Translations under genes and position numbers: made by a program
NCBI GenBank assembly: GCA_026461395.1
Contig: JAPJNA010000051.1
Location: 1-50,854 of the forward strand
DNA from: Chthoniobacterales bacterium
Lineage (GTDB): Bacteria; Verrucomicrobiota; Verrucomicrobiia; Chthoniobacterales; UBA6821
Length of the DNA stretch: 50,854 nucleotides
Direction of reading: 5' to 3'
Shown: positions 46,116 to 50,300 of the stretch, piece by piece
How the letters are laid out: each line of letters begins with the position of its first letter
Numbering within the stretch: position 1 is the first letter of the stretch
Notes under the pieces: generated by a model
The model's input: the letters and a program-made list of their open reading frames with translations, nothing else
Database searches by the model: none
Told to the model about the DNA's origin: nothing

Positions 46116-46547
46116 CTACCGTTGTTTCGGCGACCAAGGGTTGAGCACGGGAATCCTGCAATGCTGAAAATCCTGAATTTTGCGCGTGGCAAGGGTCAAT
46201 CCATGGCAGAGTGCCGTGGCCGCGATCAAGCTGTCGACGACAGGGAGCCGGCGACCGGCTTTCTCAGCCTCGGCCTGCAGTTTGGCCCATGAGTTCATTT
46301 CCTCTTCTCCAAGGGGCAGGATGCGCCCAGCAAAAGCGGGAAGAAGCTCCTCGGCAAGCCAACCTTCCAGCATTTGCCTCTTCTTTCCACGGGGAAGCAT
46401 CAGAATCCCCTTTTGGATTTCCGCCGTGGAGACCACGCTGACGAAGCAGGATCCATGAGCTCTCCGGGAGAACCACTCCGCCACACGAGTGTCTGGAATG
46501 GCCCTCGTCGCCTCACTCAGGACATTCGTATCGAGCAGATAGTTCAC
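46116..46547 (-). CDS. VapC-type PIN-domain toxin
   Basis: A 143-residue PIN-domain ribonuclease. The acidic metal ligands are in NYLLDTNVLSEATR (N-terminal Asp), VSTAEIQKGILML (Glu) and LPVVDSLIAATALCHGLTLATRKIQDF (two Asp). The usual Asn of the TRN motif is replaced by Lys (TRK). I use the GTG start at 46547, overlapping the antitoxin stop as GTGA. The ORF-track start at 46631 lies inside the antitoxin. It is flanked by the left 93-bp repeat. Confidence 0.85.
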   Translation of the reverse strand: MNYLLDTNVLSEATRAIPDTRVAEWFSRRAHGSCFVSVVSTAEIQKGILMLPRGKKRQMLEGWLAEELLPAFAGRILPLGEEEMNSWAKLQAEAEKAGRRLPVVDSLIAATALCHGLTLATRKIQDFQHCRIPVLNPWSPKQR

Positions 46548-46792
46548 AGCTCGACCTTGCGAGGAAGATCCTTGCATCGACTGATCGGGAGTTCGCTCAA
46601 ATCGGAGGGGCATGACCTCAGGACCTCCCAAAGCGGTCTCTCGGCCCCGCTCCTGACCTGCCAGTCAGCGGCGCTCACGATGATGACGAAGGGCTTGCCG
46701 TGTTTCGTCACAAGCTGGGGATCTCCCTTGGCGGCCTTCTCGGCGACGGCAGAAAAACGCTGTTTGGCGGTTTGGAGTTGATGGGCGATCAC
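46544..46792 (-). CDS. Phd/YefM-type antitoxin
   Basis: An 82-residue antitoxin for the VapC-type toxin. The N-terminal HQLQTAKQRFSAVAEKAAKGDPQLVTKHGKPFVIIVSAADW is the Phd/YefM DNA-binding pattern. The C-terminal part should bind the toxin. I choose GTG 46792, because AGGGAGG lies 8 nt upstream. The track's ATG at 46810 would place this site inside the gene and has none of its own. Phd-type antitoxins normally repress their own operon. Confidence 0.82.
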   Translation of the reverse strand: MIAHQLQTAKQRFSAVAEKAAKGDPQLVTKHGKPFVIIVSAADWQVRSGAERPLWEVLRSCPSDLSELPISRCKDLPRKVEL

Positions 46793-46819
46793 GTAAGAAA
46801 CCTCCCTCATTTTGTCGAT

Positions 46820-46853: not shown

Positions 46854-46946
46854 GAAATAAAGAACCGGGATCTCTTTTACCCACTCAGGTTTCAAGTTTC
46901 AGCTTTCAGGTTTCTTTAATCAGATCTTCCCCTGCCCCTTCAGCCA
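46854..46946. repeat. 93-bp direct repeat, right copy
   Basis: The right copy of the repeat at 46008-46100 has six mismatches. It contains the last eight codons and stop of the cerR-like gene. The two copies bracket the toxin-antitoxin pair exactly, as attachment-site or recombination duplications would. Confidence 0.8.
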
Positions 46947-47918
46947 TGCGGCGGTTTCCGCGAGGGTCTCCGCAAGCGTGCGGCGGTGGCTCCAGGCGAA
47001 GTGCTCGGCAAAGGTCGTTCCTTCGGCGACCCATCGTGAGGGAAGGATCTCACGCACTCGGTCCCGCCCGAGACTCGGGGCGGCGGCACGCCAGGCAGGA
47101 ACCGCGTCGATCACCAGAGAGGCTAGTTGGATCGTAACCTGGGGAACCGAAAGCGTGATGCCGCGAGCATCGATCACTTCGGCAGCGGTCGCAATCAGTT
47201 CGGAATCCGTGATGAGTTGCTCCGAGCCAAGATAGAAGGGCCCGTGCTTCTCCCAGTCAGCAGGCGCAACCACTGCGACAGCCAGTATGGCGTCACAGAG
47301 ATCACCGACATCGATCCAGCTGTAATGCTTGGGAGCAAAGCCCGGTTTGATGCGAATCGGACCGGCTGCCATCTTGAAGAGCGGTAACGTGGCGGCATCG
47401 CGCGGCCCGAGCACCATCGGTGGCCTGAGAATGAGGAGCCGCCGACCAAGCCGATTGCGGAGTTCCCGCTCCATCGTGAGCTTGGAGGCACCGTAGAACG
47501 AAACAGGATTGTCCTGGTGATTCATGGTGCGTGAATGCTCTCCACGGGGCGTGGGACCACCGGCCGCCTGAGAGGAGAGAACGATGATGCGGGCAGTCCG
47601 GGGTAGCTGAGACATCAACCTCAGAGTTCCTTCCACATTCGTTTCAAAATACTCCTCGCGTCGCCGTGCAAAGAGGAGGCCTGCCGCATGAATCACCAGA
47701 TCGGGAGCCATGCCCGGCGGGAGCTCCCAGAAATCGCCGGTGACTCTACAGATCAGCAAGCGCCCGTCATCAGCAATCCCCTCACCCTGAAGCTGTGCGC
47801 GAAGCTTCTCCGGATCCCGAACCGGAAGAATGATGCGGCTCCAGCGGGAGTCACGATGAAGCTTAAGCAACAGATTCCGTCCGACGAATCCCGTGGAGCC
47901 GGTCAAGAGAAGTTCCAT
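46920..47918 (-). CDS. NAD(P)-dependent SDR reductase, candidate 3-ketoceramide reductase (CerR-type)
   Basis: A 332-residue extended short-chain dehydrogenase. The cofactor loop is LTGSTGFVGRNLL (residues 5-17). It has LVIHAAGLLFARRREEYFETNVEGTLRLM, VLSSQAAGG and the catalytic FYGASKLTMERELRNR (YxxxK). The C-terminal half is the variable substrate part of UDP-sugar epimerase relatives. By itself it could act on many substrates. Its place right after the GNAT gene and spt fits the ceramide reductase CerR of Caulobacter-type sphingolipid clusters, which is of this family. Its last codons lie in a 93-bp repeat duplicated beyond the toxin-antitoxin pair. Confidence 0.75.
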   Translation of the reverse strand: MELLLTGSTGFVGRNLLLKLHRDSRWSRIILPVRDPEKLRAQLQGEGIADDGRLLICRVTGDFWELPPGMAPDLVIHAAGLLFARRREEYFETNVEGTLRLMSQLPRTARIIVLSSQAAGGPTPRGEHSRTMNHQDNPVSFYGASKLTMERELRNRLGRRLLILRPPMVLGPRDAATLPLFKMAAGPIRIKPGFAPKHYSWIDVGDLCDAILAVAVVAPADWEKHGPFYLGSEQLITDSELIATAAEVIDARGITLSVPQVTIQLASLVIDAVPAWRAAAPSLGRDRVREILPSRWVAEGTTFAEHFAWSHRRTLAETLAETAAWLKGQGKI

Positions 47919-47962
47919 AAAAAAGTGATTCCCAATCTCGAGCAGGAGAATCTTTGCAGAGG

Positions 47963-49117
47963 CTAGAGAGCCTTCTCAAAAATCTCGTAGGTTCGGGAAC
48001 AATGGCCGCCCATGAGTTTCGCGGCCTCAAGAATCTCCACATTGTTAGCTTCTACCCAGGAGACTTCCACCACGCTGTGCTTCACTTTTGAAACCATAAA
48101 GCTCTCATAGAAAAGCAGGGCGCTCAGCCCCTTGTCGCGATAATCGGGCTCGACACCCAACACGCAAAGTCGGCTGGTCTTTGGCTTGCAGATCTGTAGT
48201 CGTAGCGCCATCTCCAGAAAGCGGAGGATCCCCTTGCGGCCTCGGGAGGCATGGAACACCTCGTTCACATTCGGGAGAGTGAGTGAGAATCCGACCTCCT
48301 TTCCATCCATGCAGACAAAGAAAATCATCTTGGGATCTGCGATCGCCTTAAGGTCATCAGCAGAGTGAAGCAAATCATCCAACGCAATCGGATAGAAGCC
48401 CCAGTTCCGATCCAGTGTGATGTTGTAGAGCCGATGAATGATCTCCATTTCCTTCGGCAGATTTTTCATATCGAGGGACCGCACCGTAACGCTGTTACGA
48501 TTTCTGATGCGACTCACGATCTTGCTCACTCGCTCAGGAGGATCGTTGTGCAGCGGCACATCATAGGCGGCAAGAGTGCGTACGACCTCCAAGCCCGCCT
48601 CCTTGTAGACCCCCTTATAATAGGGAGGATTCCACGGCATCGAAACAGAGGTCGGCCGCTCATTCCCCTCGGTCAGGACTCCGCAGTCGTCATTGATGGT
48701 GGGGTTGTAAGGGCCCCTCATGGAGGTGAGCCCCTTTTCTTTGAGAATGGCTCCGGCGGCATCAATAAGAACCTTGGCGACCGCTGGATCCTCAATGAAA
48801 TCAAAGAAGCCAAAAAAGCCGACGGTGTCCTTGTTAAAGTCGTTGTGGGAGCGATTGACGATGGCCGCGATGCGACCGACAGGCCTCCCTTCGCGATAAG
48901 CGATAAGAGGGGTGATTTCCCCGTGCTTTTTTAGAAAGATCGACTTCGGGCCGATCAGGTTGACAACACTACCCGGAAACGGCGGCGTGAAGCTCGGATC
49001 CGTTCCATGAAGAATTTCCGGAATCGACTCGAACTTCTTCAGGTCCGCCGCGCCGTGGCAGGGCAAAATCGAAAACATTCCGGCGGCGGCTAGGTTCTGT
49101 GTATGCTGGGTCATCAA
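47963..49117 (-). CDS. GNAT-fold acyltransferase, candidate bacterial ceramide synthase (bCerS)
   Basis: A 384-residue YghO-like GNAT protein. The N-terminal acetyltransferase-like part has FESIPEILHGTDPSFTPPFPGSV and REGRPVGRIAAIVNRSHND. The family-specific segment SMRGPYNPTINDDCGVLTEGNERPTSVSMPWNPPYYKGVY is near residues 132-171. A second GNAT-like region (KEVGFSLTLPNVNEV, CVLGVEPDYRDKGLSALLFYESF) is at the C-terminus. Bacterial ceramide synthase, which N-acylates 3-ketosphinganine, is of this type. The assignment rests on fold plus position next to spt. The start is ATG 49117, or ATG 49078 (MFSILP), giving a 149- or 110-nt overlap with spt. Confidence 0.7.
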   Translation of the reverse strand: MMTQHTQNLAAAGMFSILPCHGAADLKKFESIPEILHGTDPSFTPPFPGSVVNLIGPKSIFLKKHGEITPLIAYREGRPVGRIAAIVNRSHNDFNKDTVGFFGFFDFIEDPAVAKVLIDAAGAILKEKGLTSMRGPYNPTINDDCGVLTEGNERPTSVSMPWNPPYYKGVYKEAGLEVVRTLAAYDVPLHNDPPERVSKIVSRIRNRNSVTVRSLDMKNLPKEMEIIHRLYNITLDRNWGFYPIALDDLLHSADDLKAIADPKMIFFVCMDGKEVGFSLTLPNVNEVFHASRGRKGILRFLEMALRLQICKPKTSRLCVLGVEPDYRDKGLSALLFYESFMVSKVKHSVVEVSWVEANNVEILEAAKLMGGHCSRTYEIFEKAL

Positions 49118-50300
49118 AAGTCCCTAGTTCTCTCGCAATCTTGGCAAAAATGTCGAGCACCTTGTCGAGATCTTCCTCTGTGTGCGTCGACATGAAACTG
49201 GTGCGAACAATCGCTTCTCCATAACGAACGGCTGGGTAGATGGCGGGTATGGCAAAGACACCCTCCTCAAAGAGGCGCTGAGCGAAGGCAAAGGCCTTGG
49301 CCTCGCTACCGATGAGGATGGGCACAATCGGGCTCTGGGTGGAGCCGATTTTAAAACCGATCGACTTAAACCCTTCGTGCATCTTGCGGGTGTTGCGCCA
49401 GAGCATCTCGATGCGCTCGGGTTCCGCCTGCATGATTTCGAGGGCCTTGAGGACTCCACCGACCACGGCTGGAGCGAGCGAGGCAGTGAAGATAAAGCAG
49501 CGAGCCTTGTGCTTTACGAACTCGATCATCTCATGCGAACCGGAGATGAACCCCCCCATGGAACCGAAGGACTTGGAGAAGGTACCCATGACGATCTCGA
49601 CATCGTCATTGACCCCGAAATGATGGGTCACACCGCGCCCTTGGGGACCGACCACACCGAGTGAATGGGCCTCGTCAACATACATGATGGCACCATATTC
49701 CTTGGCTGCCTTCACCATCGGAGGCAGATCAGCCATATCGCCGGACATACTGAAAACACCATCCATGATGATGAGGCGTCCGGATTCCTCGGGGATACGC
49801 TTGAGACGATTGCGAAGGGCGTCCACCGAGTTGTGACGATAAGGAACCAGCTTTGCGGGAGCGACCTGGCAACCCTCAATGATGGAGGCATGGTTCTCAC
49901 GGTCACAGAGAATGAAATCATCGGCCTCGGTCAAAGCAGCAAGTGCACCCTGATTAGCAAAAAAACCGGTGGAAAAAAGAAGGGCACTTTCGCGACCAAG
50001 GAACGCTGCCAACGCCTCCTCCAGCTCATTGTGAAGAGAGATAGTACCATTCAGGAGGCGGGAACCGGTGCATCCGGCTCCGAACTTGCGTGTCGCCTCG
50101 CAGGCCGCCTCGACGATGCGGGGATCTTGAGCCAGGCCGAGGTAGTTATTAGACCCAATCATGATCTTCTCCTCGCCACCGCAGACAACATGGTTCCCGT
50201 AGCTCTGCTCAATGCAGCGGAAATACGGGTAGAATCCCTGGGCTCGGGCATCTGCCGAATCGCTATACTCTCGGCACTTCTGGAAGAGGTCTCTGGCCAT
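48969..50300 (-). CDS. spt: serine palmitoyltransferase
   Basis: A 443-residue PLP enzyme of the alpha-oxoamine synthase family that condenses serine with an acyl thioester to 3-ketosphinganine. It shows GFYPYFRCIEQSYGN at residues 22-36, MIGSNNYLGLAQDP, GAGCTGSRLLNGTISLHNELE, HASIIEGC with the ring-stacking His 137, YVDEAHSLGVVGPQGRG and TFSKSFGSMGGF with the Schiff-base Lys 243. The N-terminal YPYFRxIE and GCTGSR forms favour serine palmitoyltransferase over glycine C-acetyltransferase, BioF or HemA. About 45 residues past the AOS core form a tail that overlaps the next gene. No acyl-carrier gene is adjacent. Confidence 0.86.
   Translation of the reverse strand: MARDLFQKCREYSDSADARAQGFYPYFRCIEQSYGNHVVCGGEEKIMIGSNNYLGLAQDPRIVEAACEATRKFGAGCTGSRLLNGTISLHNELEEALAAFLGRESALLFSTGFFANQGALAALTEADDFILCDRENHASIIEGCQVAPAKLVPYRHNSVDALRNRLKRIPEESGRLIIMDGVFSMSGDMADLPPMVKAAKEYGAIMYVDEAHSLGVVGPQGRGVTHHFGVNDDVEIVMGTFSKSFGSMGGFISGSHEMIEFVKHKARCFIFTASLAPAVVGGVLKALEIMQAEPERIEMLWRNTRKMHEGFKSIGFKIGSTQSPIVPILIGSEAKAFAFAQRLFEEGVFAIPAIYPAVRYGEAIVRTSFMSTHTEEDLDKVLDIFAKIARELGTFDDPAYTEPSRRRNVFDFALPRRGGPEEVRVDSGNSSWNGSELHAAVSG

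Follow-up and report, generated by a model that had tools for sequence, protein, structure and literature searches.

A predicted ceramide-backbone operon with a dual-coding spt-bCerS junction in a freshwater Chthoniobacterales bacterium

Introduction

Ceramide synthesis of the Caulobacter type involves five genes, spt, cerS (bCerS), cerR, acpR and aasR, and the proteobacterial cerS is said always to occupy an operon separate from spt and cerR (PMC11324152). Clustering of spt, bCerS and cerR is already known, and the same order on the same strand is found in Rubrobacter radiotolerans and Streptomyces sp. NBC_01001 (loci L130 and L134), so the pathway as such is not new. Here we analyze the corresponding gene cluster on contig JAPJNA010000051.1 of a Chthoniobacterales bacterium. 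The contig was studied over its whole length of 50,854 nucleotides (nt), hereafter the window, and belongs (as C26) to a 2.03-Mb genome that is 95% complete and whose closest named relatives are freshwater Spartobacteria metagenome-assembled genomes (MAGs). The three genes lie on the minus strand and are predicted to encode a serine palmitoyltransferase (Spt; 50300-48969, 443 amino acids), a bacterial ceramide synthase (bCerS; 49114-47963) and the reductase CerR (47918-46920, 332 amino acids). We consider it highly probable, with the chemistry argued from homology, that they constitute a ceramide-backbone biosynthesis operon with a dual-coding junction between spt and bCerS.

The window shares its three enzyme families with Caulobacter, but acpR and aasR are absent beside the cluster, Spt is closer to the Bacteroidota type, which is reported to use acyl-CoA, and bCerS starts inside spt. 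In Rubrobacter and Streptomyces, whose bCerS proteins are 26-31% identical to that of the window, spt and bCerS overlap by only 8 and 4 nt, respectively, in contrast to the 146 nt found here. A survey of 2008 gave holD/rimI, at less than 60 bp, as the longest real co-directional overlap (PMC2478687). There, too, two conserved genes share a segment in different frames, but the overlap in the window is longer and, although some lineages have lost it, is conserved in several families of one order. Other long bacterial overlaps are described in later papers, and the spt/bCerS overlap is therefore unusual rather than unique. For Verrucomicrobiota, Spt-like genes are on record in 22 MAGs from the Black Sea (PMC11334938), and our literature search found no paper on sphingolipids in Spartobacteria.

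Results

The original prediction placed spt, a GNAT gene and a gene of the SDR family consecutively on the minus strand, in a compact and unbroken order. The three open reading frames and their order were confirmed, but the description understated the arrangement, as it missed the 146-nt overlap of spt and bCerS (48969-49114, minus strand). The spt frame continues 146 nt beyond the bCerS ATG, so that spt codons 396-443 and the stop also carry the first bCerS codons in the +1 frame. These belong to the approximately 50 codons by which the window Spt exceeds known Spts. From the ATG at 49114 bCerS comprises 383 amino acids, or 384 from an alternative TTG at 49117. A Shine-Dalgarno-like TAGGGA (49121-49126, minus strand; TAGGAA in most relatives) lies inside spt, 6 nt upstream of the ATG, and is likely the bCerS ribosome-binding site. 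It makes use of a rare codon, since Leu392 is CTA in 16 of 20 sequences, compared with 15 of 624 Leu codons in the rest of spt. These 20 distinct sequences come from independent MAGs; they were picked for the 146-nt form, share ancestry and are not independent trials. The bCerS ATG is at spt codon 396 and the spt TAG stop at codon 444 in all of them.

To assess constraint, parsimony changes per site were counted by codon position on an spt tree. The spt third positions had 5.58 changes per site in the body of the gene, where 20-codon windows never fell below 3.80, versus 2.70 in codons 396-415, while the first and second positions of these codons (0.80 and 0.45) were at the level of the Spt body. 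In codons 1-14 of the bCerS frame the second position was variable (3.00) and the third was not (0.79), which is the pattern that spt coding leaves. In codons 15-48 of bCerS, positions 1, 2 and 3 had 1.47, 1.65 and 2.44 changes, and past the overlap the values were 2.00, 1.29 and 6.46, with third-position windows never below 5.39. When synonymous codons were resampled with only the bCerS protein fixed, the spt frame was open in 20% of the cases and open with the stop in place in approximately 0.8%, against 20 of 20 observed. At the level of sequence evolution, these patterns show that the last 48 spt codons and the first bCerS codons form a single segment that codes in two frames and is under selection in each of them.

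The 146-nt form is present in most of family f1 of the order and in one genus of f4. Overlaps of approximately 86-134 nt occur in families f3, f62, f66, f69 and further f4 members, and one f1 sub-branch has 74 nt, so that the overlap, at 74-146 nt, is found in six families altogether. In f66, bCerS begins at the ATG of the MFSIL position (spt codon 408); this internal start was rejected for the family of the window, where most relatives have Thr at that position. Programmed frameshifting to an Spt-bCerS fusion found no support, as there is no stop in frame 0 that would need bypassing, and nearly all f1 sequences have a TAG in the bCerS frame just upstream. Overlap-free junctions, with bCerS starting 18-42 nt past the spt stop, were seen in the f4 genus g174 (L180 and L181) and in a single g171 genome (L183). 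A further genome, from f62 (L179), has bCerS elsewhere, away from spt. Second and third bCerS copies were seen as a tandem pair after spt in the L183 genome (G390) and as unlinked copies in g174 (G342, G347, G368); they are possibly acyltransferases differing in chain preference.

Past the end of a typical Spt, codons 394-415 (49056-49121, minus strand) encode a lineage-specific conserved motif, TFDDPAYxEPGRRRNVFDFALP. All overlap-free lineages keep it as FDDPAY..RRNVFDFRL and then diverge, which makes the motif a feature of Spt in its own right and, on the alignments, a genuine part of the protein in this order. For residues 416-443, bCerS coding is probably the main determinant.

The identification of the pyridoxal 5'-phosphate (PLP) enzyme as Spt was supported. 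The motifs quoted in the original prediction are present in the protein as YPYFRCIE, GCTGSR and TFSKSF, and N51, H137 (ring-stacking), D209, H212, K243 (the PLP lysine) and A273 are invariant in the Spt alignment. The best NCBIfam model was the Bacteroidota-type serine palmitoyltransferase NF047600 (494.7 bits), ahead of the BioF and Kbl models. Among solved structures, the best match, over the whole catalytic domain, was Spt of Sphingobacterium multivorum (8guh, 3a2b; 405 bits), which lacks the approximately 50 additional C-terminal residues of the window protein; BioF and Kbl scored at most 315 bits. In a maximum-likelihood tree, the window Spt joined the 3A2B and 2X8U Spts and verrucomicrobial enzymes adjoining bCerS, and was split from E. 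coli BioF and Kbl, 7POA and the genome's own BioF/Kbl-like protein (L005) with a support of 99/92. As the tree has flagged long branches, only this split was used, and the enzyme does not group with BioF or with glycine C-acetyltransferase (Kbl). Its activity in serine condensation is predicted from homology.

For bCerS, no Pfam or NCBIfam family matched and a sequence search of the PDB gave no significant match, so the fold was placed by fold search only. The AlphaFold2 model (predicted local distance difference test, pLDDT, 84.6) matched tandem GNAT acetyltransferases in Foldseek, including 5kf1 (E-value 8e-15) and 7q3a, with E-values from 8e-15 to 2e-13. Family invariants include G81, R82, I83, A85, G135, P136, P161, N285 and N359. 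The bCerS and CerR comparisons were made with sequences from bacteria other than Caulobacter. In the bCerS tree, the window protein lies in a clade separate from eight divergent verrucomicrobial homologues that have no recognised adjacent spt. Its members stand beside Spt or in sphingolipid gene clusters: in Rubrobacter and Streptomyces they directly follow spt and share the motifs, and a Roseomonas member clusters with LptF/G-like permeases, a CDP-alcohol transferase and a nucleotidyltransferase, resembling the Caulobacter phosphosphingolipid region. The same clade takes in E. coli YghO, a homologous tandem-GNAT protein (KE47, L135) that differs from the window bCerS in its genomic setting and shares approximately 26-29% identity with it. 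The proposed membership of the GNAT protein in the bCerS clade was thus borne out, and its assignment as a tandem-GNAT bacterial ceramide synthase, predicted by homology to catalyze N-acylation, is supported. At the KE47 locus (L135:1504-7089), the YghO-type gene is approximately 3.4 kb from an Spt-like gene and near a CerR-like SDR gene on the opposite strand, which suggests that some E. coli carry a sphingolipid cluster.

The third protein is an extended SDR of the NAD-dependent epimerase/dehydratase family with GxxGxxG and YxxxK; the TGSTGFVG and YxxxK quoted for it were found, the latter as YGASK. The genome has no second close copy. In 16 chosen order-mates, a CerR orthologue (38-54% identity) was present in all 14 with Spt and bCerS and was not found in the two single-contig 0.9-Mb genomes without them. 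Neither was it found in any of 12 order-mates without bCerS, giving 0 of 14 without the Spt-bCerS pair. In two f4 genera and in f62, the orthologue is on a different contig from the pair. It is this phylogenetic profile, together with gene position, rather than a close position in the tree, that backs the proposed assignment as CerR.

Several other lineages differ in gene content. The two 0.9-Mb genomes (G036 and G057, family f3 of the same order), which are of endosymbiont-like size, are without Spt, bCerS and CerR; Spt and bCerS are retained in G327, a larger genome of that genus. CerR was not found in any of four family f2 genomes that have bCerS and a distant Spt-like gene (34-37% identity to the window Spt). 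The two genes are near each other in f2 (L077, L078), approximately 1 kb apart in G013. Hence, f2 must either rely on some other reductase or form another product, and a different lipid pathway is possible there. In Desulfovibrio and relatives (L026-L069), bCerS adjoins CerR and no Spt was recognisable in the fetched stretch, so Spt is either elsewhere or different in these bacteria.

The order spt-bCerS-cerR was kept in 15 Spartobacteria/Verrucomicrobiota loci (L008-L012, L014-L023), far beyond chance; L013 begins inside spt and was left out of the count. No acyl-carrier gene, as had been noted from the sequence alone, and no acyl-ACP (acyl carrier protein) ligase gene lies beside the three genes. 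Two ACP-type genes and two AMP-ligase genes are found elsewhere in the genome, none near the cluster. Downstream of cerR, related loci usually have a divergent AlgH-like gene and ribosomal protein L11. In the window, a Phd-type antitoxin and a PIN-domain (VapC-like) toxin gene (46116-46810, minus strand) lie between cerR and the AlgH-like gene; as only approximately 105 nt separate cerR from AlgH in L008, this pair looks inserted. At the contig end (50798-50854) there are 4.8 copies of a perfect 12-bp tandem repeat, CACGCGGCAGTC, which is probably the reason why the assembly stopped just upstream of spt.

Discussion

In the proposed pathway, Spt would make 3-ketosphinganine, bCerS would N-acylate it, adding the second acyl chain, and CerR would reduce the ketone to give dihydroceramide, although acylation and reduction may be swapped. 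The acyl donor is likely acyl-CoA, given the Bacteroidota-type Spt and one long-chain ligase-like gene of the genome, away from the cluster, or acyl-ACP, given the two ACP-type genes. The swapped, eukaryotic order, with 3-ketosphinganine reduced to sphinganine before acylation to dihydroceramide, has been proposed for Caulobacter by one group (PMC11324152). It would be compatible with the window CerR, whose Rossmann motif is at the extreme N-terminus (residues 6-13) with no obvious export signal, so that the enzyme could be cytoplasmic like Spt and bCerS. On the other hand, CerR is periplasmic in Caulobacter, where a cerR mutant builds up oxidised ceramide (PMC11087976), and the overlap links bCerS, not CerR, to Spt. 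We therefore regard the reductase-first order as rather unlikely and prefer acylation before reduction.

Some observations weigh against the assignment of the cluster to ceramide synthesis with a dual-coding junction. At 494.7 bits, Spt missed the equivalog cut-off of NF047600 (640), which is a naming threshold rather than a biochemical criterion. The SDR is separated from the nearest CerR group by a long branch (2.2); SDR trees are weak evidence, and the phylogenetic profile is much stronger. Finally, conservation is weak in the Spt stretch 416-443, which may be a mere by-product of bCerS coding.

It is also conceivable that the PLP enzyme takes cysteate, as for sulfonolipids, or alanine or glycine, as for 1-deoxysphingolipids, and that the product is a ceramide analogue. 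The choice of amino acid is not readable from family membership, and the enzyme employed in sulfonolipid synthesis resembles Spt and shares its fold (PMC9304779). However, the diagnostic Lys281 of SulA, 30 residues after the PLP lysine, is replaced by the invariant Ala273 in the window Spt, and the cysteate enzymes SulA (7u7h) and 28eh scored only 231-237 bits, compared with 405 for Spt. The sulfonolipid pathway was rejected on the Lys281 test, and alanine is a possible substrate. Taken as a whole, an analogue is improbable compared with a ceramide made from serine.

Least probable, and in our view very much so, is that the overlap is an artefact of an spt tail created by a frameshift or a lost stop, or of bCerS starting further down, with no DNA used twice: in the 2008 survey, every one of the 715 co-directional prokaryotic overlaps longer than 60 bp was classed as a misprediction (PMC2478687), one extra T in a TTTT run would yield TGATGA, a classic stop/start junction, and AlphaFold2 left Spt residues 404-443 disordered (pLDDT below 50), but the frames, ATG and stop are identical in the 20 sequences, the overlaps recur between families, the overlap-free lineages still carry the tail motif, and bCerS is homologous to distant relatives and folded from approximately residue 15 onward, so at least approximately 100 nt must be shared. 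A sequencing error at the TTTT run was rejected as the source of the long tail, since the same frame occurs in 20 distinct genomes.

With the overlap taken as genuine, bCerS is likely translated from the spt message by internal initiation, because its start codon and likely ribosome-binding site lie inside spt, and its amount would be coupled to that of Spt. The start, approximately 145 nt before the spt stop, appears too far away for simple termination-reinitiation, and ribosomes on spt probably open the bCerS start site or compete with it. A bolder proposal, which we put forward as doubtful, is that bCerS can be started only inside spt, fixing the enzyme ratio, and that the Spt tail docks bCerS or the membrane for a direct handover of 3-ketosphinganine.

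As far as the literature searched shows, what is new is the dual-coding spt-bCerS junction conserved across families of the order. Long bacterial overlaps of this kind have rarely been validated, and spt-bCerS offers a clean test case for dual coding because some genera have the overlap and related ones carry this gene pair without it, which allows one to ask how shared DNA affects enzyme ratio and evolution. The phylogenetic profile also gives an argument for identifying CerR among the SDRs. The claim that bacterial cerS and the de novo genes always belong to different operons (PMC11324152), the base of a salvage-pathway argument, meets a clear counter-example here and does not extend to this order. 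Through these genes, which belong to the core set of the genus, uncultured freshwater Spartobacteria become likely sphingolipid producers.

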